Below, piece after piece: positions 32 through 12,437 of a stretch of 12,437 bases of DNA. How positions within the stretch are numbered: position 1 is the stretch's first letter; every line of letters starts with the position of its first letter. The stretch lies in contig CAAFPB010000172.1 of the NCBI GenBank assembly GCA_900764725.1, positions 1 through 12,437 on the forward strand. The letters run 5' to 3'. This stretch comes from an uncultured Catenibacterium sp. (GTDB lineage: Bacteria > Bacillota_I > Bacilli_A > Erysipelotrichales > Coprobacillaceae). The position numbers and the translations under genes are program-made. Under the pieces are notes generated by a model that saw only the letters and a program-made list of their open reading frames with translations, was not told where the DNA came from and did no database searches.

Positions 32-420
32 TCTACACCTGCTCTTTCCATACGTTTCGCAAGGGCAACACTAGGTACTACAGGCATTACAATAATACCT
101 GCTTCTTTCCACTTCTTAATATAAATACCAGGATTACCAGCCCCAGTAGTCACTACAGGAACCTTTTCTTCTACCACAATATCAGCCATTTCATCAGCCT
201 GTGGATGTAATAACATCAAATTAACACCAAATGGTTTATCTGTAAGTTTTTTTGCTTCACGGATGTTTTCTCTTAACATATCAGGAGACATACCTCCTCC
301 TGCAATTAAACCTAAACCACCTGCATTAGATACAGCTGCCGCAAAAGCACCTGTCGCAATATTAGCCATACCACCCTGAATAAGAGGGTACTTAATCTTT
401 AATGTTTCATTTAACCACAT
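32..420 (-). CDS. fabK: Enoyl-ACP reductase II FabK, N-terminal part (truncated by contig end)
   Basis: FabK is the FMN-dependent enoyl-[acyl carrier protein] reductase that completes each fatty acid elongation cycle in many Bacillota in place of FabI. Only the first 129 codons are present; the family is usually a little over 300 residues. The start MWLNETLKIKYPLIQGGMAN, followed by SNAGGLGLIAGGG (residues 31-43) and VVTTGAGNPG (89-98), is the FMN TIM-barrel signature shared by FabK and nitronate monooxygenases. The fatty acid operon context decides for FabK. The ATG at 420 follows a GGAGAAG ribosome binding site, and 10 bases separate it from the fabH stop. The 3' part is lost at the adapter junction; fabD, fabG and fabF may lie beyond it, but they are not seen. 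Confidence 0.93.
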
Positions 421-430
421 AGTCTTCTCC

Positions 431-1351
431 TTACCACTCTATCAGATTGGCACCATAAGTCAGTCCTGCACCAAACCCTACACAGAGTATCTTCATACCT
501 CTTTTTAATAGTTTCTTTTCATTCATCTCTGCAAGTACAAGAGGAATACTTGCAGCAGATGTATTTCCATATTCATCTACATTCAGATAGAACTTATCCG
601 ATGTTACTTTCATTTTCTTATAAACATGACGAATAATTCTTTCATTCGCCTGATGCACCACAAAGTAATCAATATCATCTTTAGTCAGTGATGCTTTTTC
701 TAATACTTTCTCTATACACATAGGCAGAACTCTTGTCGCAAACTTAAAGACTTCTTTACCTTCCATATGTAAATAATCATTCTTTAAACCATAAAGCACT
801 TCTTCATTGCCTTCTGATCCTTGATAGTCTACAAATAATTTATTGTCTTTTTCTAATACAACAGCACCAGCCCCATCACCAAACAAGATGCATGTTGTAC
901 GATCTTTCCAGTCAATTAGATTTGAAAGCTGTTCAGCACCAATGACTAGTGCATAACGTTTATCACTTGTATAAAGTAATGAACGTGCCACTGATAATGC
1001 ATAAACAAATCCACTGCATGCTGCGTTTAAATCAAACGCAAATACATTATTATTTAAACCTAAACGTTCTTGTAAGAGACAGGCAATAGAAGGAGTGTTA
1101 TAGGGAGAAGACATTGTAGCTACAATAATGATTCCAATATCTTCTTTATTAATACCTTCTAATGCCTTTAAAGAGGCATGACATGCCATATCTACAAGTG
1201 TTTCATCTTTACTTATATGACGTTTCTTGATACCAGTGCGGGGATAAATCCATTCATCACTCGTATCAACAATCTTTGATAAATCATCATTAGTCAGTAC
1301 ATTTTCAGGTACATAATATCCTGTATTGATGATAGAAATACCCTTATCCAT
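431..1351 (-). CDS. fabH: Beta-ketoacyl-ACP synthase III (FabH)
   Basis: FabH starts fatty acid synthesis in the cytoplasm by condensing an acyl-CoA primer with malonyl-ACP. The protein is 306 residues, normal for the family, and has the full Cys-His-Asn triad: C112 in NAACSGF, H233 in VVHQAN and N263 in YGNTSAAS. The glycine-rich GFGAGLTYG end (292-300) is also typical. I place the start at the ATG at 1351 (MDKGISIINTGYYVP), not at an in-frame start further upstream, because it aligns with the usual FabH N-terminus and has GGAG about nine bases before it. This start overlaps the accA stop by eight bases in the string ATGGATAA, so translation is probably coupled. It lies between accA and fabK in the operon. 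Confidence 0.96.
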   Translation of the reverse strand: MDKGISIINTGYYVPENVLTNDDLSKIVDTSDEWIYPRTGIKKRHISKDETLVDMACHASLKALEGINKEDIGIIIVATMSSPYNTPSIACLLQERLGLNNNVFAFDLNAACSGFVYALSVARSLLYTSDKRYALVIGAEQLSNLIDWKDRTTCILFGDGAGAVVLEKDNKLFVDYQGSEGNEEVLYGLKNDYLHMEGKEVFKFATRVLPMCIEKVLEKASLTKDDIDYFVVHQANERIIRHVYKKMKVTSDKFYLNVDEYGNTSAASIPLVLAEMNEKKLLKRGMKILCVGFGAGLTYGANLIEW

Positions 1352-2282
1352 TTTTCCATTCTCCAATCTTACGATATCTGTTGTATCTTTTACGTATGAG
1401 TGAATTGACATCCATTGGTACAAGAATATCTAACTGTTCTCTAATTACCTTACGTATTGTACGATACACTGCAGTAGGATTAGTAGTCATACCACCTAGA
1501 GGTTCTTTGATAATTTCATCAATGATTCCATAATGATATAAATCTTCAGCTGTCATCTTCATGACTTCACAAGCTTCCTCAATACGTTCTCCTTTAACAT
1601 CCTTCCAAAGAATAGACGCAAAACCTTCAGGAGATAAAACAGAATATACCGCATTTTCTAACATAGCTAAGTGATCACCAATACTAAGGGCTAAAGCACC
1701 ACCACTTCCCCCTTCACCTGTAATAATCACAATAATAGGAACCTTTAAATCACTCATCATCATTAGACTCTGACCAATAGCTTCACCAATCCCATTCTCT
1801 TCAGAACTAATACCAGGATAAGCACCCGGTGTATCAATAAAAGTAATAATAGGACGATGGAACTTTTCAGCCTGTTTCATTAAACGCATTCCTTTACGAT
1901 ATCCTTCAGGACTTGCCATACCAAACTGACACTTTAGGTTATCATCCAGACTTCTTCCTTTTTGATGACCAATAATTGTGACAGGCATGTTATTAAACAT
2001 CCCAATACCACCGACAATTGCCTGATCATCCTTGAAATAACGATCTCCACGCATTTCTAAAAACTCATCAAATACATGATCAATAAACTCATGAATATGA
2101 GAACGTTCAGGCTTTCTTGCAAGATAAACACGATCATATGCACAAAGATGTGTATATGTCTCTTTCTTATAATCATTGATTGTTTCTTCAATCTTAGTGG
2201 AATCTATTTCTCGATCATTCTTAATGACTGCAAGCTTTTTTTCTAGCTCTGCAATCTTTTCTTCCTTTTCCTTTAAAGACAT
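1344..2282 (-). CDS. accA: Acetyl-CoA carboxylase carboxyltransferase subunit alpha
   Basis: AccA pairs with AccD to form the carboxyltransferase that moves CO2 from biotin on AccB to acetyl-CoA, giving malonyl-CoA. The protein has 312 residues, close to the well-known E. coli length. An N-terminal charged coiled-coil-like stretch (residues 2-20, LKEKEEKIAELEKKL) leads into the crotonase-like fold with GDRYFKDD, FIDTPGAYPG and the oxyanion-type GEGGSGGALALSIGD motif. The ATG at 2282 follows a near-perfect AAGGAGGG site; the longer in-frame extension would run into accD and looks non-coding. Its TAA stop lies inside the start region of fabH. The upstream neighbour is accD, ten bases away, so the two subunits are made together. 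Confidence 0.97.
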   Translation of the reverse strand: MSLKEKEEKIAELEKKLAVIKNDREIDSTKIEETINDYKKETYTHLCAYDRVYLARKPERSHIHEFIDHVFDEFLEMRGDRYFKDDQAIVGGIGMFNNMPVTIIGHQKGRSLDDNLKCQFGMASPEGYRKGMRLMKQAEKFHRPIITFIDTPGAYPGISSEENGIGEAIGQSLMMMSDLKVPIIVIITGEGGSGGALALSIGDHLAMLENAVYSVLSPEGFASILWKDVKGERIEEACEVMKMTAEDLYHYGIIDEIIKEPLGGMTTNPTAVYRTIRKVIREQLDILVPMDVNSLIRKRYNRYRKIGEWKNG

Positions 2283-2292
2283 ATAACCCTCC

Positions 2293-3153
2293 TTATACAT
2301 GCATATGTAATAATAAAGCCAATGTGTCACGCATCTTCTCACGTTCCACAATCATATCTACAAAGCCATGATCTTCTAAGAATTCAGCACGCTGGAATCC
2401 TTCAGGTAGCTTTGTTTTCATTGTACTTTCAATAACTCTAGGTCCTGCAAAACCAACTAGTGCACCTGGTTCTGCAATATTAATATCACCAAGCATTGCG
2501 AATGATGCAGTAACACCACCTGTTGTAGGGTGTGTTAAATAAGAAATATAAAGAAGACCTGCATCTAAATGACGCTTTAATGCAGCACATGTCTTACCCA
2601 TCTGCATTAAAGAGAAGATCCCTTCCTGCATTCTTGCGCCACCACTTGATGAAAAGATAATTAAAGGTAATTTCTTTCTTGTCGCCATTTCAATTGCACG
2701 TGTAATCTTTTCACCTGCAACACTACCCATAGAAGCCATCATAAAACGATGATCCATGACTACTACAATCGTACGCATATGATCAATACGACCACCTGCT
2801 ACAACAACACCATCATGTAATCCTGTCTTATATTCATACTTTTCAATCTTCTCTTCATAATTAGGGAATCCTAAAGGATTCCCAGATTTCATAGAAGTGT
2901 AGTATTCTTTGTATTTCTTGTTGTCAAATAATGCATCTAGACGTGCATAAGCATCAATAAAGAGGTGATGACCACAATGAGGACATACCTGTAAATGATT
3001 CTTTAAATCAAGTGTACGAATTGTCTGATTACAGCTAGGACAAGCCTGATATAAACCATCAGGTACTTCCTGTTTTTCTACTTTCTTATCTTTATTTAAA
3101 TAACGACGAAAGTCCTGTAATTGTTGTTTTCTTTTCTTCCAGATATTATCCAT
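2293..3153 (-). CDS. accD: Acetyl-CoA carboxylase carboxyltransferase subunit beta
   Basis: AccD is the zinc-finger subunit of the acetyl-CoA carboxylase carboxyltransferase, partner of AccA. The N-terminal Cys4 zinc ribbon is complete: C38, C41, C57 and C60 (CPSC...CPHC). The crotonase-type domain follows with FSSSGGARMQEG, THPTTGGVTASFAM and EPGALVGFAGPRVI. I choose the ATG at 3153 (MDNIWKKRKQ, 286 residues) over the in-frame GTG two codons upstream because GGTGAG lies five bases before this ATG. The start overlaps the accC stop by eight bases in ATGGATAA, the same overlap architecture seen at accA/fabH. The C-terminus ends at LLLHMHV, just before the accA ribosome binding site. Confidence 0.97.
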   Translation of the reverse strand: MDNIWKKRKQQLQDFRRYLNKDKKVEKQEVPDGLYQACPSCNQTIRTLDLKNHLQVCPHCGHHLFIDAYARLDALFDNKKYKEYYTSMKSGNPLGFPNYEEKIEKYEYKTGLHDGVVVAGGRIDHMRTIVVVMDHRFMMASMGSVAGEKITRAIEMATRKKLPLIIFSSSGGARMQEGIFSLMQMGKTCAALKRHLDAGLLYISYLTHPTTGGVTASFAMLGDINIAEPGALVGFAGPRVIESTMKTKLPEGFQRAEFLEDHGFVDMIVEREKMRDTLALLLHMHV

Positions 3154-4507
3154 TTTCACTCACCATCTCATCTAAATGTGTTTCAATAAAACTTGTATCA
3201 AAATGACCTTTAATATAATCAGGTTGATGTAGGATATAGAACTGTAATGTCTGGTTAGTTGTAATACCTTCAATTACTAGTTCACTTAAAGCACGTCTCA
3301 TACGCTTAATCGCTTCTAATCGAGTAGGAGCATGGACAATCACTTTCGCAACCATTGAGTCATATTGAGTAGGAAGTGTATAACCTGTATACAACATAGT
3401 ATCCACTCTGACTCCTGGTCCTCCAGGTAAATGCATGAAGTTCACCTGTCCAGGACAAGGTCTAAAGTTATGGAAAGGATCTTCCGCATTAATACGACAT
3501 TCAATAGAATGACCTTGTAAAGTAATATCTTCCTGTTTAAAGTTTAAAGGTAAACCTGATGCAATACGAATCTGTTGTTTAATTAAATCAATACCAGTAA
3601 CCATTTCAGTAATAGGATGTTCTACCTGAATACGCGTATTCATTTCAATAAAGTAATAGTTGTTGTGTTCATCTAAGACAAACTCAACAGTACCGGCATT
3701 GGTATAACCAGCACCCTGTGCTGCCTTGACGGCAGATTCACCCATTTTTAAACGTAAAGAATCATCTAATACCTTACATGGTGCTTCTTCAATCATCTTC
3801 TGATTACGTCTTTGAATAGAACAGTCTCTTTCACCTAAATGAATGACATTGCCATGCTCATCTGCAAGAATCTGGAACTCAATATGTTTAGGATTCAAGA
3901 CAAGCTTTTCTACATACATATCATCATCCCCAAAACATGCTTTAGCTTCTGCTTTGGCAGTCATAAAGGCGTTCTCTAGTTCATCTTCACTAAAGGCCTT
4001 ACGCATACCACGGCCTCCGCCACCAGCACTTGCTTTAATAAGGACAGGATAACCAATTTCATTCACAACTTCTTTTAATTCTTCATATGTATTGACTGAA
4101 CCATTTGAACCTGGAACGACAGGAACACCTGCTTCAATCATCATTTCTCTTGCCTTAGATTTATTACCTAATGCATCAATGACATCACCCTTAGGACCAA
4201 TAAACTTAAGTCCACAAGTCTCTACCAGTCTCGCAAAATCACTATTTTCAGATAAAAAACCAAAACCTGGATGAATAGCCTGACAACCTGTCTCTACTGC
4301 GGCAGTAATAATCGCTTCCTTATTTAAATAACTATCAGCACTCTTAGGACCACCCACACAAACTGCTTCATCTGCTAACTGTACATGTAATGCATTCTGA
4401 TCAGCCGTAGAATAAATGGCTACCGTTAAAATATCCATTTCTTTACATGCACGTATAATACGAACTGCGATTTCTCCACGGTTCGCAATTAAAATCTTCT
4501 TAAACAT
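3146..4507 (-). CDS. accC: Biotin carboxylase (acetyl-CoA carboxylase subunit)
   Basis: AccC uses ATP and bicarbonate to carboxylate the biotin carried by AccB. The 453-residue protein has the expected order: an N-terminal pre-ATP-grasp domain beginning MFKKILIANRGEIAVR, the ATP-grasp glycine loop AGGGGRGMR (161-169) after K159, the HLGERDCSIQRR strand, and the catalytic cluster E288, N290 and R292 in FIEMNTRIQVEHP. These are the same numbers as in the E. coli enzyme. A C-terminal biotin carboxylase domain with the signature ECRINAEDP follows. The ATG at 4507 is preceded by GAGG, which lies inside the last codons of accB; only one base separates the accB stop from this start. No key residue is missing. 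Confidence 0.97.
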   Translation of the reverse strand: MFKKILIANRGEIAVRIIRACKEMDILTVAIYSTADQNALHVQLADEAVCVGGPKSADSYLNKEAIITAAVETGCQAIHPGFGFLSENSDFARLVETCGLKFIGPKGDVIDALGNKSKAREMMIEAGVPVVPGSNGSVNTYEELKEVVNEIGYPVLIKASAGGGGRGMRKAFSEDELENAFMTAKAEAKACFGDDDMYVEKLVLNPKHIEFQILADEHGNVIHLGERDCSIQRRNQKMIEEAPCKVLDDSLRLKMGESAVKAAQGAGYTNAGTVEFVLDEHNNYYFIEMNTRIQVEHPITEMVTGIDLIKQQIRIASGLPLNFKQEDITLQGHSIECRINAEDPFHNFRPCPGQVNFMHLPGGPGVRVDTMLYTGYTLPTQYDSMVAKVIVHAPTRLEAIKRMRRALSELVIEGITTNQTLQFYILHQPDYIKGHFDTSFIETHLDEMVSENG

Positions 4508-4508
4508 A

Positions 4509-4937
4509 CTATTCCTCAATGATCATTAAAGTTTGATCAAAGCTTACTAATTCTTCATCCTTCACTAATAAAGAACGGACAGTACCATCTACAGGTGCCT
4601 TAATTTCATTCATGACCTTCATGGCTTCAATAATACATAATGTCTGTCCCTTAGTGACTTTTGACCCTTCCTTGACAAAAGGCTGATCATCTGGGGAAGG
4701 AGAAGAGTAATAAACACCTACAAGAGGAGCCTTTACTTCTGTACCACTAACTACTGGCTTTTCTTCCTTTGCTTCTTGTACAACTACAGGCGCACTTTCA
4801 CTAGATACAGAGACAGGTGCAGTTACCTGCACCTGTTGACTCTTTTCAAGTTCAAGTTTCACGCCTTCCATTTCAATTTTCATCTTATCGATATCTGCTT
4901 GTTCAAAAGCTTCCATCAACTCTCTGACTAAATCCAT
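4509..4937 (-). CDS. accB: Biotin carboxyl carrier protein (BCCP)
   Basis: AccB is the carrier whose biotinyl-lysine shuttles carboxyl groups between AccC and AccDA. The 142-residue protein has three parts: an N-terminal helix (MDLVRELMEAFEQADIDKMK), a Pro/Ala/Val/Ser/Glu-rich flexible linker (about residues 32-66), and a C-terminal biotinyl domain from about 67. K107 in EAMKVMNEI is the biotinylation site. The ATG at 4937 follows GAAGG at a normal spacing; a TTG nine codons upstream is in frame but less likely. It is the protein that links the operon's fatty acid genes to the biotin transporter gene bioY at the operon head. The stop codon TAG lies one base before the accC start. Confidence 0.96.
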   Translation of the reverse strand: MDLVRELMEAFEQADIDKMKIEMEGVKLELEKSQQVQVTAPVSVSSESAPVVVQEAKEEKPVVSGTEVKAPLVGVYYSSPSPDDQPFVKEGSKVTKGQTLCIIEAMKVMNEIKAPVDGTVRSLLVKDEELVSFDQTLMIIEE

Positions 4938-4952
4938 AGAAAACCTTCTTTC

Positions 4953-4965
4953 TTTGAAATTCAAA
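4953..4965. promoter_or_regulatory. TTTGA-N3-TCAAA palindrome between acpP and accB, possible FabT-type operator
   Basis: The 13-base string TTTGAAATTCAAA is a perfect 6-1-6 palindrome in the 44-base gap between the acpP stop and the accB start. The TTTGA...TCAAA layout resembles operators described for FabT, a MarR-family repressor of fatty acid genes in lactic acid bacteria and streptococci. I see no convincing internal promoter beside it, so it could instead be a chance palindrome or act as a roadblock. The match to the motif upstream of bioY is what makes it worth noting. Confidence 0.45.
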
Positions 4966-4981
4966 CTATTTATTTAAAAAA

Positions 4982-5212
4982 TTAAGCATTAGCTTCTAAG
5001 TAATCAACAATGTCCTTTACAGTAGCCATCTTGTTAGCTTCTTCATCAGGAATCTGTACATCGAATTCATCTTCTACAGCCATAATTAATTCAACGGCAT
5101 CTAATGAATCTGCATCAAGATCATCCTTTAATGATGCTTCTAATGTTACCTGTTCTTCATCACAGCTAAGTGAATCTACAATAATATCTTTTACCTTATC
5201 AAATGTTGTCAT
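4982..5212 (-). CDS. acpP: Acyl carrier protein
   Basis: ACP carries the growing acyl chain on a 4'-phosphopantetheine arm. The protein is 76 residues, strongly acidic, and has the canonical attachment motif [18 protein letters not shown] with the modified serine at S36. The C-terminal helix ([13 protein letters not shown]) is standard. The ATG at 5212 follows AAGGAGG with eight bases of spacing; this ribosome binding site overlaps the TAA stop of bioY (TAAGGAGG). A strong site suits the high expression that ACP needs relative to the enzymes downstream. No acpS is seen in the window. Confidence 0.97.
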
Positions 5213-5225
5213 GTTTATATCCTCC

Positions 5226-5765
5226 TTATGACAAAACTGTTTTTCTTAATACAATCTTTTCTAATTTCAATGCGATAACACAGCTTACTGCAATCTTTAA
5301 TGCATCACCAAGTAAGAATGGTAATACACAAGTCATTAATGTACTTAGAAGTGCTGCTTTCATTGTATACATGAAGTAAATACTTCCAAGTCCATAAGTA
5401 ATAGCTGTTCCAATGACCATGGCAATAATATGTCCCTTAATTGAACGATCATGAGTAATGATTGTACTCATAACTAAAGCCATGATAGGAAAACTAAATA
5501 AGAATCCACCAGTAGGACCTAGCAAGGCACCCATGCCACTATTGAAATGACTAAATACTGGAAGACCAATACCTCCCATAATTAAATAACATAGCACTGT
5601 ATAGAATGCATGGTTTGGTGTCAATAGACACGCAATGAGATAAATGGCCAGGGTTTGTAATGTGATAGGGACAGCTGTAGGCAATGTGACAGAAATCTGT
5701 GATAAACAGATTAATACCCCTAACATCAATGCATCTCTGACTAGATTTGATACATTAGATTTCAT
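5226..5765 (-). CDS. bioY: Biotin ECF transporter S component BioY
   Basis: BioY is the membrane protein that binds biotin and works with an ECF energising module (EcfA, EcfA', EcfT) in the cytoplasmic membrane. The 179-residue protein is nearly all hydrophobic, with about six membrane segments. It carries BioY hallmarks: [12 protein letters not shown] near the N-terminus, the loop [15 protein letters not shown] in the middle, and [11 protein letters not shown] near the end. The ATG at 5765 follows AAAGGAGAA; an in-frame TTG ten codons upstream is less likely. It is the first gene of the fatty acid operon, so uptake of the cofactor is transcribed together with its consumer AccB. No ECF ATPase or biotin ligase is in the window; they must be encoded elsewhere. 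Confidence 0.94.
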
Positions 5766-5785
5766 ATCATTCTCCTTTACTACTT

Positions 5786-5803
5786 GGAATATCAAACTAT
5801 TCC
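5786..5803. repeat. Inverted repeat in the bioY leader
   Basis: GGAATA-TCAAAC-TATTCC is a perfect six-base inverted repeat with a six-base centre. It lies between the predicted bioY transcription start (about 5806) and the start codon. The centre contains TCAAA, the half-site that recurs in this intergenic region. It could be an operator half-site context or a small leader hairpin near the ribosome binding site. It is too short and weak to be a terminator, and I do not recognise it as a biotin riboswitch or a BirA operator. Confidence 0.35.
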
Positions 5804-8431: not shown

Positions 8432-9191
8432 ATGATGAGAAAGGTATTATTTTTTGATATTGACGGCACATTGGCTATTCATGGCCATATTCCAGAATCA
8501 AACAAGAAAGCTTTAGAGGCATTAAAAGAGAAGGGGTATGATACATTTATTTGTACAGGACGTGCGCCTTATTATGCAGAAAATTTATTTGGAAAACTGG
8601 TTTCAGGTATTATTTCATGTAATGGTCGTTATATTAGTTATAGGGGTGAAAAAACTTCATGGTGTGCCTTTTACACCTGTTGAAGTAGAAGCACTAAAAA
8701 AGAAACTAGATTCTTTAGGATGTGGAGGACTGTTTGTATCTGATACATTCTCAACTCCTTATCATCTAGAAGGAGAAGTATTAAATGATACAAAGAAGGA
8801 ATATGGTGAAGAACATATTAAAGATGAAGAAGGCACTTATTATACATGTGATTTCTTCTATGATACGCTAGAAAAGAGAGATGCAATGATAGAAGCCTTT
8901 AAAGATCGTATTATTAATGATCATGGTGGCACTGGTTCATGTGATACATCTACCCTTATCTTTGATAAGGGACATGCGATTAAGTATATTATTGATCATT
9001 TCTCACTCACTAAAGAGGATGCCTATGCCTTTGGTGATGGCTATAATGATCAAGCCATGTTTAGAGAAGCAGGACAACGCATAGCGATGGGAAATGGTGT
9101 TGATGTCTTAAAAGAAAAAGCCACTTATATTACAGATACAGTGGACAATGAAGGAATATATAAAGCTTTAAAATATTATGAGTTACTTTAA
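8432..9191 (+). pseudogene. Cof-type HAD-superfamily phosphatase, interrupted by a frameshift
   Basis: Two frames together encode a full Cof-like haloacid dehalogenase phosphatase, a cytoplasmic enzyme group that dephosphorylates sugar phosphates or flavin-type substrates. The first frame has motif I D9-x-D11-GT (FFDIDGT) and motif II T42 in FICTGRA, then ends at a stop at 8681-8683. The second frame, shifted by +1, resumes at KLHGVPFTPVEVEAL and holds the cap domain, motif III lysine in FDKGHAIKY and motif IV GDGYNDQAMF. Removing one A from the A6 run at 8649-8654 joins them as RGEKLHGVPF and gives about 252 residues, a normal length. Everything else is well preserved, so the change is either very recent or a sequencing or assembly error. 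The ATG at 8432 follows GGGAGG. Confidence 0.85.
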
Positions 9192-9229: not shown

Positions 9230-10963
9230 ATGAAACAAAAAAATGATTTTCAAACATTTATATCTTACTTCAAACCACATCGTCGTCTATTCTTTTTAGA
9301 CCTTGCATGTGCTTTAATGATTTCTTTAATTGATCTCGCTTTTCCATTTGTCTCTAGATGGTGTATGTATACATTACTACCAAATAGTATTTATAAGACA
9401 TTCTGGATGGTGATGATCATCTTCTTATTTGCGTATTTAATTCGTTCATTCTTTACTTATGTGATTTGTTATTATGGGCATACATTTGGTATTCTTGTCG
9501 AAGCAGATATGCGTAAAGACTTATTCGAACATATGCAGTCATTAAGCTATGGTTATTTTGATAATAACCGTATTGGACAATTAATGAGCCGTTTAACTAC
9601 TGATTTATTTGATATCACTGAACTTGCGCACCATGGACCAGAAGACTTATTTATTTCTACAGTCACTATTATTGGTTCTATTATTATCATGTTCACAATC
9701 GAATGGCGTTTGGCTTTAGTTATTGCGATTACGATTCCTATTTTTATACTTGTAGTATGGAAATCACGTCACTCTATGAGTGAAGCCTCAATTCGTGTTA
9801 AACAGAAAGTGGCAGTCATCAATACTGATATCGAATCAGGTCTTACTGGTATGAAAACAGCTAAGGCTTTTGCGAATGAAACAATTGAACAACAGAAGTT
9901 CAATACATCCAATGATACATATAAGACTTCAAAGAAGCAGTTCCATAAGGCTATGGGTCGCTTTAATGCGATTATGGAATTCTTCATGTGTACATTATCA
10001 CTTATCGTTATTGCGGTAGGTGGTGCTCTTATTATGCAGGGTAAGATGGATACAATTGATCTCATTACTTTTAGTTTATATGTCTCTACATTTGTGAATC
10101 CAGTCCGTAAATTATCTAACTTTGCGGAATTATTTGCGAATGGTACGGCTGGTCTTCATCGTTTTGTAGAACTACTTAATACGAAACCTCAATTAGAAGA
10201 TCGTCCTGATGCCAAAGAACTTACAAATGTATCTGGACAGATTGATATCAATCATGTTAGTTTTGCGTATGAAAAAGACAGAGATATCTTAACAGATATT
10301 GATTTACATATTCGTTCAGGTGAAACAATTGCGTTAGTAGGATCATCAGGAGGAGGTAAAACAACTTTATCTCAGTTGATTCCTAGATTCTATGATGTCA
10401 CAAAAGGAGCTATTTTAGTAGATGGTCATGATGTTAGAGATGTGACTCAAACATCACTCCATAACAACATTGGTGTAGTCTCACAGGATGTCTTCTTATT
10501 TGCGGATAGTATTGCGGAAAATATCCGTTATGGTAAATTAGATGCGACAATGGAAGATATCATTGAAGCAGCTAAGTTAGCTGAAATCTATGATGATATT
10601 ATGGATATGCCTGATGGTTTTGAAACCAATGTAGGAGAACGTGGTGTATTATTATCTGGTGGACAGAAACAGCGTATCTCTATTGCAAGAATCTTCTTAA
10701 AGAATCCACCTGTACTTATTCTAGATGAAGCAACAAGTGCCTTAGATAGTGTCACTGAAGCTAAGATTCAGGAAACATTTGATAAGTTATCACAGGGACG
10801 TACAACAATTGTGATTGCACATCGTTTATCTACAGTTAAGAATGCGGATCGTATTGCGGTTATTGATGAAGGAAGAATCATTGAACTAGGAACGCATCAT
10901 GAATTATTAGAAAAAAATGGTGCTTATGCACAATTAGTACATACACAGGAATTGATGAAATAA
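9230..10963 (+). CDS. ABC half-exporter, ATP-binding and permease domains fused (multidrug/MsbA-like)
   Basis: This 577-residue protein is a typical type IV ABC half-transporter that would dimerise in the membrane and export a lipid, drug or peptide. Residues 1 to about 320 hold six membrane helices (around 20-42, 57-80, 139-158, 160-178, 248-270 and 276-293). The nucleotide-binding domain has Walker A GSSGGGKTT (371-379), Q419 in VVSQDVF, signature LSGGQ (475-479), Walker B VLILDE (495-500) with E500, and H531 in IAHRLS. There is no N-terminal C39 peptidase domain, so it is not a classical bacteriocin-cleaving exporter. It is a single gene ending in a strong terminator. Its substrate cannot be read from sequence; the ACGX peptide locus lies about 550 bases further on but on a separate transcript. 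Confidence 0.9.
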   Translation: MKQKNDFQTFISYFKPHRRLFFLDLACALMISLIDLAFPFVSRWCMYTLLPNSIYKTFWMVMIIFLFAYLIRSFFTYVICYYGHTFGILVEADMRKDLFEHMQSLSYGYFDNNRIGQLMSRLTTDLFDITELAHHGPEDLFISTVTIIGSIIIMFTIEWRLALVIAITIPIFILVVWKSRHSMSEASIRVKQKVAVINTDIESGLTGMKTAKAFANETIEQQKFNTSNDTYKTSKKQFHKAMGRFNAIMEFFMCTLSLIVIAVGGALIMQGKMDTIDLITFSLYVSTFVNPVRKLSNFAELFANGTAGLHRFVELLNTKPQLEDRPDAKELTNVSGQIDINHVSFAYEKDRDILTDIDLHIRSGETIALVGSSGGGKTTLSQLIPRFYDVTKGAILVDGHDVRDVTQTSLHNNIGVVSQDVFLFADSIAENIRYGKLDATMEDIIEAAKLAEIYDDIMDMPDGFETNVGERGVLLSGGQKQRISIARIFLKNPPVLILDEATSALDSVTEAKIQETFDKLSQGRTTIVIAHRLSTVKNADRIAVIDEGRIIELGTHHELLEKNGAYAQLVHTQELMK

Positions 10964-10989: not shown

Positions 10990-11316
10990 TTATGCCTGAT
11001 TTTTATAATTATTACCCCAGTTAACCATAGCATCTAGGATTGGTTTTAAACTCCAGCCAAGTTCAGTCAATGAATATTCTACTCTAGGAGGTACTTCAGC
11101 GTACACTTCTCTATGTATAAGTCCATCTTCCTCCATAGCACGAAGCTGTGATGTAAGTACTTTTTGTGATACAGAACCAATAGATTTCTTTAATTCCCCA
11201 AAACGTTTAGTACCTTGAAGTAAATCTCTTATAATTAGTACTTTCCACTTATTTCCGATTAAAGTAAGTGTTGTTTCTACTGGACATGCAGGTAACTCTT
11301 TTGTCTTCTCGCTCAT
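10990..11316 (-). CDS. HxlR-family (DUF24) winged-helix transcriptional regulator
   Basis: This 108-residue regulator has the HxlR/DUF24 signature: CPVETTLTLIGNKWKVLIIRDL near the N-terminus, then a winged helix with RFGELKKSIGSVSQKVLTSQLR and the wing EDGLIHREVYAEVPPRVEYSLTELG. The conserved cysteine C11 just before PVE corresponds to the redox-sensing cysteine of members such as YodB and HypR, which respond to quinones, aldehydes or disulfide stress; sensing here is inferred. The ATG at 11316 follows TAGGAGAA. It is divergent from the ACGX peptide locus and convergent with the ABC exporter. Two palindromes lie over its leader and promoter, which suggests autoregulation. Confidence 0.92.
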   Translation of the reverse strand: MSEKTKELPACPVETTLTLIGNKWKVLIIRDLLQGTKRFGELKKSIGSVSQKVLTSQLRAMEEDGLIHREVYAEVPPRVEYSLTELGWSLKPILDAMVNWGNNYKNQA

Positions 11317-11387: not shown

Positions 11388-11422
11388 GCCATCTGTTATT
11401 GGTTACTTTGAGGTAACTATGC

Positions 11423-11445
11423 CACAATATTGTGCGTACTTGTGC
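11423..11445. promoter_or_regulatory. Palindrome and helical-phase direct repeat upstream of the ACGX peptide gene
   Basis: CACAATATTGTG (11423-11434) is a perfect 12-base palindrome. Its right arm overlaps the first of two TTGTGC direct repeats (11430-11435 and 11440-11445) spaced exactly ten bases, so both face the same side of the helix. The second copy coincides with the predicted -35 box. This is a probable operator or activator site for the peptide locus; its sequence differs from the AGTAT sites near the HxlR gene, so another regulator may bind here. Confidence 0.45.
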
Positions 11446-11467: not shown

Positions 11468-11518
11468 AAGAATTACAGAGAGTAATCACTCGCTGAATCT
11501 ATAAAGGAGGTAATAACG

Positions 11519-11635
11519 ATGGCTCTTTCAAATATTGCAGACTGGAATGAAAATACAGCTGCTCCATCAACTGCATGTGGTGCAGGCGATAAGCCAGCTG
11601 CTTGTGGTACAGCTTGTGGCGCAGGTGATAAGTAA
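11519..11635 (+). CDS. ACGX-repeat RiPP precursor peptide
   Basis: This 38-residue peptide begins MALSNIADWNENTAAPST (probable leader, 1-18) and ends in a repetitive cysteine-rich core: ACGA (19-22), ACGT (28-31) and ACGA (32-35), with cysteines at C20, C29 and C33. The seven-residue unit ACGAGDK occurs exactly twice (19-25 and 32-38), and the two DNA copies differ at three codons, all silent, which argues that the peptide is under selection. Strong AAGGAGG precedes the ATG by eight bases, and two TAA stops follow in tandem. A radical SAM enzyme gene lies 92 bases downstream. I assign it to the ACGX-repeat peptide family known to pair with radical SAM/SPASM proteins. The cysteines are the likely modification sites, perhaps thioether crosslinks, but that chemistry is inferred. 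Confidence 0.85.
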   Translation: MALSNIADWNENTAAPSTACGAGDKPAACGTACGAGDK

Positions 11636-11636
11636 T

Positions 11637-11706
11637 AAGTACGCCCCAGAATAATCTGGGGACGTATTTCCAAGGAAACAACAATGTGTGTTTCTTTAGA
11701 AATACG
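11637..11706 (+). promoter_or_regulatory. Two overlapping hairpins between precursor and maturase genes
   Basis: Hairpin 1 has a core CCCCAGA / TCTGGGG with loop ATAA (11644-11661) and can extend with AAGTACG / CGTATTT (11637-11643 with 11663-11669). Hairpin 2 pairs CGTATTTC (11663-11670) perfectly with GAAATACG (11699-11706) and continues with AAGGAAACA / TGTTTCTTT (11672-11680 with 11689-11697) around an eight-base loop. The segment 11663-11669 can pair in only one of them. Neither is followed by a long T-run, so this is more likely a processing, attenuation or translation-control element than a full terminator. It lies six bases before the maturase ribosome binding site. Confidence 0.65.
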
Positions 11707-11727
11707 AATAATAAGGAGGATACAAAT

Positions 11728-12437
11728 ATGAGACGATACTTTTCTTTTCAATGGCATATTACTGATGAATGTGATCAGAGATGCAAACACTGTTATATTT
11801 TTTCAGAGAATTGCAATAAAAAGCTCGATAGTATGAGCTGGGATCAGATGGAGGAAACATTCTATAACTGTTTAGATTTCTGTGAAGTTTACCACCGTTA
11901 TCCTTATTTCTATATTACAGGTGGAGATCCTATTCTTCATCCTCATTTCTGGAGGCTATTAGAATTACTTAAGAAACATTCTATTCCTTTCACTATTCTT
12001 GGTAATCCATTTCATTTGAATGATGATGTATGCCATAAACTAAAAGAATATGGCTGTGAAAAATATCAGGTATCTATTGATGGTTTAAGAGAAACACATG
12101 ACTGGTTTAGAAAACCTGGAAGCTTTGATATTACATTAGAAAAGATTGGATGTATTAATCGTGCAGGTATCCGTTCTGTAGTGATGACGACTGTTTCAGG
12201 AACTAATATTGATGAAGTACCGGGTATTATTGATGCAGTAGTAGAAGCAGGTACTAATATTTATGCTTTTGCACGTTATTGTCCTACTAGTGAAGAGAAG
12301 AATGTCAATATTGAACCTCTTCGTTATCGAGAGTTACTTGCAGAGTGTGACAAGAAGTTTAAAGAGTATGAGGCAAAAGGATGTCAGACTTACTTTAATA
12401 AGAAGGATCACCTTTGGACTTTATATGAATATGAAAC
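11728..12437 (+). CDS. Radical SAM peptide maturase of the ACGX system (C-terminus beyond window)
   Basis: The first 236 residues are visible and the frame is open at the window end. The radical SAM cluster motif C15-x3-C19-x2-C22 (DECDQRCKHCY) binds the [4Fe-4S] cluster. YITGGDP (62-68) takes the place of the usual GGEP SAM-binding motif, and QVSIDG (114-119) is the strand motif shared with PqqE- and AnSME-type SPASM proteins. A SPASM domain with auxiliary iron-sulfur clusters would be expected in the missing part. The ATG at 11728 follows AAGGAGG with eight bases of spacing. Its place directly after the ACGX precursor indicates that it modifies that peptide; the reaction (for example thioether formation at the cysteines) is inferred from related radical SAM RiPP enzymes. 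Confidence 0.9.
   Translation, partial: MRRYFSFQWHITDECDQRCKHCYIFSENCNKKLDSMSWDQMEETFYNCLDFCEVYHRYPYFYITGGDPILHPHFWRLLELLKKHSIPFTILGNPFHLNDDVCHKLKEYGCEKYQVSIDGLRETHDWFRKPGSFDITLEKIGCINRAGIRSVVMTTVSGTNIDEVPGIIDAVVEAGTNIYAFARYCPTSEEKNVNIEPLRYRELLAECDKKFKEYEAKGCQTYFNKKDHLWTLYEYE

Follow-up and report, generated by a model that had tools for sequence, protein, structure and literature searches.

The window, by which we mean the whole 12,437-nucleotide stretch of uncultured Catenibacterium DNA analysed here, ends within a locus that encodes a small repeat peptide and a radical SAM enzyme, with a divergently transcribed regulator upstream (Table 1). An earlier note, made from the sequence alone, had described an ACGX-type locus with a 38-residue peptide, three ACGX motifs, and a strong ribosome binding site. 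This description held throughout: the peptide motifs are ACGA, ACGT, and ACGA, GGAGG precedes the ATG, and when both proteins were scored on the ACGX profiles, as the note had proposed, each exceeded the curated NCBIfam cut-off. No signal peptide was evident by eye at the peptide N-terminus. The enzyme, which the window end cuts after 236 codons, carries all of the radical SAM motifs that had been claimed for it (CxxxCxxC, GGDP, and SIDG). The note had also placed it directly downstream of the peptide; the two genes are indeed adjacent, but a 92-base spacer containing a strong stem-loop lies between them.

Table 1. Coordinates of features at the ACGX locus, numbered from the first base of the window
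Feature	Position	Strand	Evidence or remark
ABC exporter gene	9230-10963		
HxlR/DUF24-type regulator, divergent, single Cys (Cys11)	10990..11316	-	PF01638, 1.2e-36
Operator-like dyad GTTAC-N6-GTAAC (candidate)	11402..11417	.	Recurs in relatives' intergenic regions
Conserved promoter element GTGCGTACTT	11432..11441	+	Near-invariant in HxlR-peptide intergenic regions
Ribosome binding site GGAGGTAA, peptide gene	11506..11513	+	GGAGG before ATG
ACGX-repeat precursor peptide, 38 aa	11519..11635	+	TIGR04341, 47.8 bits (cut-off 28), E 1.7e-12
Stem-loop between peptide and enzyme genes	11639..11667	+	z -6.6 in the window
Ribosome binding site AAGGAGGA, radical SAM gene	11713..11720	+	
ACGX-system radical SAM/SPASM maturase, partial	11728..12437	+	TIGR04340, 407.8 bits (cut-off 400) although cut

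A protein search returned 3,561 relatives, and a scan of contigs yielded at least 572 stretches that encode one. The best 80 of these stretches (L001 to L080) were used as related loci; identity to the window enzyme among them did not exceed 85% over the shared 236 residues. The earlier note had named loss of the peptide frame in relatives as grounds for rejecting its reading; the full frame, located by a start pattern, was found in 66 of the best 80 loci. ACGX coding was present but truncated, gapped, shifted, or broken in 10 more, and absent in four. In two of these four, L001 and L016, the contig ends less than 300 bases upstream, and in the other two, L034 and L061, 8 kb of upstream sequence is available and still lacks the peptide. 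Residue statistics were taken from 67 peptides, comprising those of the 66 loci and the window, with L019 and L063 left out as disturbed. The start pattern itself required Leu3, Asn5 or Asp5, and one or more Cys-Gly pairs, so their presence is no independent result. The pattern made no demand for Trp9, which is present in all 67 peptides, and a GGAG- or GAGG-type ribosome binding site precedes 66 of them. Every one of the 455 cysteines is followed by glycine (455/455), and the preceding residue is alanine at 424. The residue at Cys+4 is Asp in 239 cases and Cys in 208, so that Asp or Cys together account for 447 of 455 (98%). Successive cysteine doublets are spaced 17 residues apart in 116 of 141 cases. 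Beyond the first cysteine, all peptides together contain just one each of Phe, Tyr, His, and Leu, plus eight Val. ACGT-x-D repeats are also kept in a more distant member (L086), from which an N-terminus of this type is absent. In the L018 precursor, triplets (CGSACGSACGASD) occur beside the doublets and extend a (C-X3)n-D pattern.

To place the enzyme, we relied on full-length relatives, one of which (L008) scored 604.5 bits against TIGR04340 with the SPASM domain included. All 62 aligned relatives (62 of 62) have the SPASM-region cysteines; the corresponding part of the window enzyme lies outside the window, since the gene is cut. The next-best family was SbtM (TIGR04082, cut-off 350), which all ACGX enzymes scored here fell below: four full-length enzymes (L008, L084, L066, and L086) reached 156 to 193 bits (156.3 for L008), and the partial window enzyme reached 114. 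The match extends over the full radical SAM-SPASM region (profile positions 197 or 198 to 515), leaving the first ∼196 positions unmatched. For the four full-length enzymes tabled, SbtM outranked the heme-maturation enzymes; at 1e-20, SbtM matched all 31 members of A1, as did AhbD. SbtM itself was sought at 1e-60 in 299 Bacillota genomes with no match, and the control genomes gave none either. The L008 enzyme scored far under the SCIFF, PapB, and sactipeptide maturase models listed, with 52.6 bits against the SCIFF maturase (TIGR03974, cut-off 425) and 62.6 bits against PapB (NF047865, cut-off 340), the latter giving 41 bits for the window enzyme. Structure comparison led to general SPASM maturases, a result that thiooxazole and thioether chemistry fit alike. 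An insertion in the enzyme is suggested at two loci (L057:8001-8798 and L068:706-1503), where the radical SAM match exceeds the query by ∼30 codons.

On sequence grounds, the ACG cysteines are a plausible target of the enzyme, and we favor conversion of cysteine to thiooxazole. We rank this chemistry first because of the kinship to SbtM and the invariant glycine after cysteine: SbtM is described as removing four hydrogens to give a thiooxazole (PMC11002830), and other thiooxazole peptides are described as carrying Cys-Gly motifs and binding copper (PMC12668002). The main rival left by the sequence is a thioether as made by PapB at Cys-X3-Asp, with runs of (C-X3)n-D carrying one or nested thioethers, which we regard as somewhat unlikely. 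It would account for Asp (239) or Cys (208) at Cys+4 of the 455 cysteines, for which thiooxazole formation gives no reason. The Cys-X3-Asp motif is present in the precursor, a spacing shared with the PapB/PapA (freyrasin) ranthipeptides, and PapB is reported to act on Cys-X3-Asp and to tolerate Cys-Xn-Asp with n of 0 to 6 (PMC9413430). Asp at Cys+4 is also kept alike in loci without SirTM, the class-M sirtuin described below (53 of 89 cysteines), and in loci with it (100 of 198); its conservation is therefore probably due to something other than SirTM. Against a thioether stand the PapB score of L008, far behind that for SbtM, and the fact that nearly half of the cysteines have Cys instead of Asp at +4. 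The invariant Gly after Cys, a further difference from PapA, would also be unexpected, because the PapA motifs described hold varied residues (PMC9413430). The mass test proposed in the earlier note, a loss of 2 Da per thioether, thus fits only this second-ranked chemistry, whereas the SbtM route entails the loss of four hydrogens.

The divergent gene upstream of the peptide encodes an HxlR-type protein whose closest NCBIfam model is RrpB (146.6 bits, under the cut-off of 175). Of 66 loci, 49 have a divergent HxlR gene within 1.5 kb and 17 do not; with the limit set at 3 kb, the count is 51 of 61. Cys11 is conserved in 42 of 42 aligned HxlR proteins and is the sole cysteine in 34. The sensing cysteine of HxlR-family regulators is described as N-terminal, and in HypR, YodB, and CatR of Bacillus subtilis such a cysteine senses HOCl, quinones, and diamide, with regulons that include hypO, azoR1, and the nitroreductase gene yodC (PMC6943732). 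By this comparison, the window HxlR protein is a probable thiol-sensing switch ahead of the peptide gene.

We compared the HxlR-peptide intergenic regions of 59 loci and of the window, 60 in all. The element GTGCGTACTT is present in 55 of them, in 52 cases 84 to 100 bases ahead of the start codon, and occurs elsewhere in the same loci in only 3 copies, among 724,545 other bases; the exact 10-mer is missing from the regions of L033, L030, L038, L062, and L068. A dyad, GTYAC-N6-GTRAC, was found in 45 of the 60 regions and nowhere else in the same loci. Both motifs occur together in 41 regions, with the dyad 14 bases ahead of the element in 37 and 15 in the remaining 4. Nine further loci have the peptide and no HxlR gene called. 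Five of these carry GTGCGTACTT, and it is missing from L008, L018, L047, and L074, the last with only 45 bases upstream. In the first three, a gene of an Rrf2 cluster lies upstream, a call made by Pfam for L047 only. Downstream of the peptide, the spacer stem-loop recurs: 56 of the 66 spacers gave a z under -2 against mononucleotide shuffles.

The window ends before any gene beyond the enzyme, so the reductase and sirtuin genes of this genome are inferred from relatives. For the operon counts, we used the 51 loci in which 4.5 kb or more of downstream sequence was available, treating species as independent. Genes were called by matches to profiles built from these same loci, so very divergent neighbors may be missed. 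A nitroreductase gene was called in 35 loci and a PIG3-like quinone reductase gene in 14, with no overlap, for a total of 49 of 51. The reductase gene lies within 300 bases of the enzyme gene in 47 loci; the match in L033 is weak (36.5 bits). Two loci with shorter flanks (L001 and L027) carry both reductase types. A PNPOx-ferredoxin (flavin-ferredoxin) protein is encoded in 35 of the 51 loci, the class-M sirtuin SirTM in 32, and a zinc macrodomain in 21, never without SirTM. Wherever all three are present, the order is PNPOx-Macro-SirTM (22 of 22 loci). A divergent ACGX operon in L181 (peptide, enzyme, and, by eye, quinone reductase) lacks GTGCGTACTT and has an old-yellow-enzyme-like gene, also called by eye, ∼4 kb away.

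Small repeat peptides adjoining radical SAM enzymes are often bacteriocins. By this general expectation, the mature peptide could be secreted as a bacteriocin or signal with the adjoining stress genes incidental, a reading that the ABC exporter gene in the window and MATE-type transporter genes in 10 of the 80 loci might support. The MATE-type genes are mostly on the opposite strand (e.g., L043:12769-14145; Pfam assignment for one). However, the window exporter had no relative at 1e-60 in 140 loci (best match, 1.3e-38 in L034; the window served as positive control), and the flanking gene clusters present in more than 10 loci include no ABC exporter, protease, or peptidase. The reductase, macrodomain, and SirTM genes keep the same order from locus to locus. 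We therefore consider secretion very improbable.

The HxlR regulator and its promoter element, together with the reductase, flavin-ferredoxin, macrodomain, and SirTM setting, point to an intracellular system against thiol or electrophile stress, and shift the likely function of the peptide from that of a generic ribosomally made and modified product to that of a stress-regulon peptide. Because of the probable thiol switch, the reductases, and, in many relatives' operons, the ADP-ribosylation pair, the peptide is more probably a stress molecule acting inside the cell than an antibiotic. Our leading explanation, held tentatively and at somewhat less than even confidence, is that the locus is the start of a redox- or electrophile-stress operon with a thiol switch, whose oxidized Cys-Gly peptide serves as a cytoplasmic buffer. 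Under this model, thiol stress would act on the regulator cysteine and turn the promoter on, and the stem-loop would let the peptide be made in excess over the enzyme. The enzyme would then oxidize the cysteine of every Cys-Gly pair, with a 5-thiooxazole as the likeliest product (a loss of 4 Da per Cys). Remaining in the cytoplasm, the sulfur-rich product would buffer redox state, electrophiles, or metals, with the adjoining reductases serving it. Where present, SirTM and the macrodomain would supplement this response with reversible ADP-ribose signaling. Points against this model are the Asp or Cys at Cys+4, for which a thiooxazole gives no reason, the SbtM scores below the cut-off, the 5 of 60 intergenic regions without the exact element, the 17 of 66 loci lacking an HxlR gene within 1.5 kb, the small share (7 of 33) of SirTM loci without an ACGX enzyme that have the element, and the MATE-type genes of 10 loci.

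A related alternative is that the peptide buffers copper or another metal in the manner of the captophorins, with an anaerobic radical SAM enzyme replacing the MNIO. The reported copper binding of 5-thiooxazole peptides (PMC12668002) speaks for it, and ACGX peptides share Cys-Gly motifs with the MNIO-made 5-thiooxazole captophorins and bufferins as these are described. One group, Buf_EGKCG, likewise has 17-residue repeats in variable number. The two systems differ in the modifying enzyme (MNIO versus radical SAM), in the spacing of doublet cysteines (5 apart versus 4 in ACGX), and in the ACGX peptides having no signal peptide evident by eye. Moreover, flanking clusters in more than 10 loci include no metal regulator or metal transporter, and both the regulator and the partner proteins are redox-type. 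We consider this alternative quite improbable.

The sirtuins of the relatives' operons belong with SirTM by their residues: Asn118, Gln137, and Arg192, the class-M residues named for SpySirTM (PMC4518038), are present in 37 of 37 aligned sequences, and the zinc-site residues are present in 23 of 23 aligned macrodomains. In the PDB, the L008 sirtuin had no relatives by sequence other than SirTM of Streptococcus pyogenes and a single chain matched by the macrodomain as well. Lipoylated GcvH-L and the flavin enzymes of extended operons have linked SirTM systems to oxidative stress (PMC4518038, PMC11490716), and a 2024 study gives GcvH-L as the sole known SirTM target, with the targets of other SirTM/Zn-Macro systems described there as unknown (PMC11490716). 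Among 16 ACGX genomes (one with a fragment of the enzyme), the GCV_H model gave no match on the contig of the ACGX operon. Elsewhere in six of these genomes, it gave seven partial matches covering 36 to 58 of 122 positions (19.9 to 24.8 bits, four over the Pfam cut-off), which we provisionally take for other lipoyl- or biotinyl-type domains.

We also examined SirTM from the opposite side. Within the order of G001, a SirTM relative was found at 1e-20 in 127 of 392 genomes, and an ACGX enzyme over the cut-off in 6 of 146, G001 included. Forty SirTM loci with flanks were picked by hand down the match list, many on contigs that end early. Seven have an ACGX enzyme, one of them merely a contig-edge fragment, and another (L154) has the ACGX peptide without the enzyme. 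In L154, an HxlR gene, GTGCGTACTT, and the peptide lie shortly ahead of the sirtuin gene and no radical SAM gene was found; this is possibly a decayed operon. The 33 SirTM loci without an ACGX enzyme include 14 with a divergent HxlR gene upstream (one 7 kb away) and only 7 with GTGCGTACTT. In such loci, the element precedes macrodomain-SirTM genes (L151 and L163) and ferredoxin-nitroreductase genes (L152 and L159), and the dyad lies at 14 bases from it in L151, L152, and L159. The shared element and dyad are good evidence, at the level of sequence, for a common regulon in part of the genomes. On a quick SirTM tree (77 rows, two pairs identical in sequence), the ACGX label, which counts L154, required 17 changes, at least 9 of them forced by starred branches; shuffled labels required 24.7 on average, and none of 500 shuffles as few as 17. 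The label is therefore clustered yet changes often, and gains and losses look alike. Many genomes clearly have SirTM operating without ACGX, and some contain ACGX without SirTM.

By analogy, a multiply sulfur-modified peptide would be a reasonable stand-in for a lipoyl carrier in the same kind of operon. A further proposal is that the modified ACGX peptide is the SirTM/Zn-macro substrate in bacteria without a recognizable GcvH-L, its sulfurs replacing the lipoyl arm and its state switched by reversible ADP-ribosylation on a repeat Asp or Cys. We consider this improbable. Aspartate conservation lends it no support, Asp at +4 being equally kept without SirTM.

Both ACGX families were already named in NCBIfam, as models without a product or function, and we found no paper on TIGR04341 or TIGR04340 in the open-licence literature searched. 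What is new here is their genomic setting (HxlR, reductase, and SirTM), from the best 80 loci of at least 572 stretches. As described for Staphylococcus and Streptococcus (PMC4518038, PMC11490716), extended operons link SirTM and a zinc macrodomain to a sulfur-bearing partner and flavin oxidoreductases, as the operons of ACGX relatives also do. In the former, the place of the partner is held by lipoylated GcvH-L with LplA, and in the latter by the peptide with its radical SAM enzyme. ACGX operons offer a concrete candidate SirTM target with its own modifying enzyme, beside such pairs in gut anaerobes, and may represent an oxygen-free route to thiooxazole peptides. The setting also gives an unexplained family a testable function, thiol stress defense.

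The rest of the window holds other genes. Its first ∼32 bases (positions 1-32) resemble an Illumina TruSeq adapter; the contig start is therefore probably a trimming artifact, and the end of the first open reading frame not real. Two overlapping frames (8432-8683 and 8538-9191, within 8432-9191) appear by eye to be parts of a single HAD-type hydrolase gene that a frameshift interrupts. On the minus strand, positions 34-5795 hold a row of fatty-acid synthesis genes and BioY, in which NMO/FabK-like, FabH, AccA, and biotin carboxylase genes were assigned by Pfam and the others by eye.
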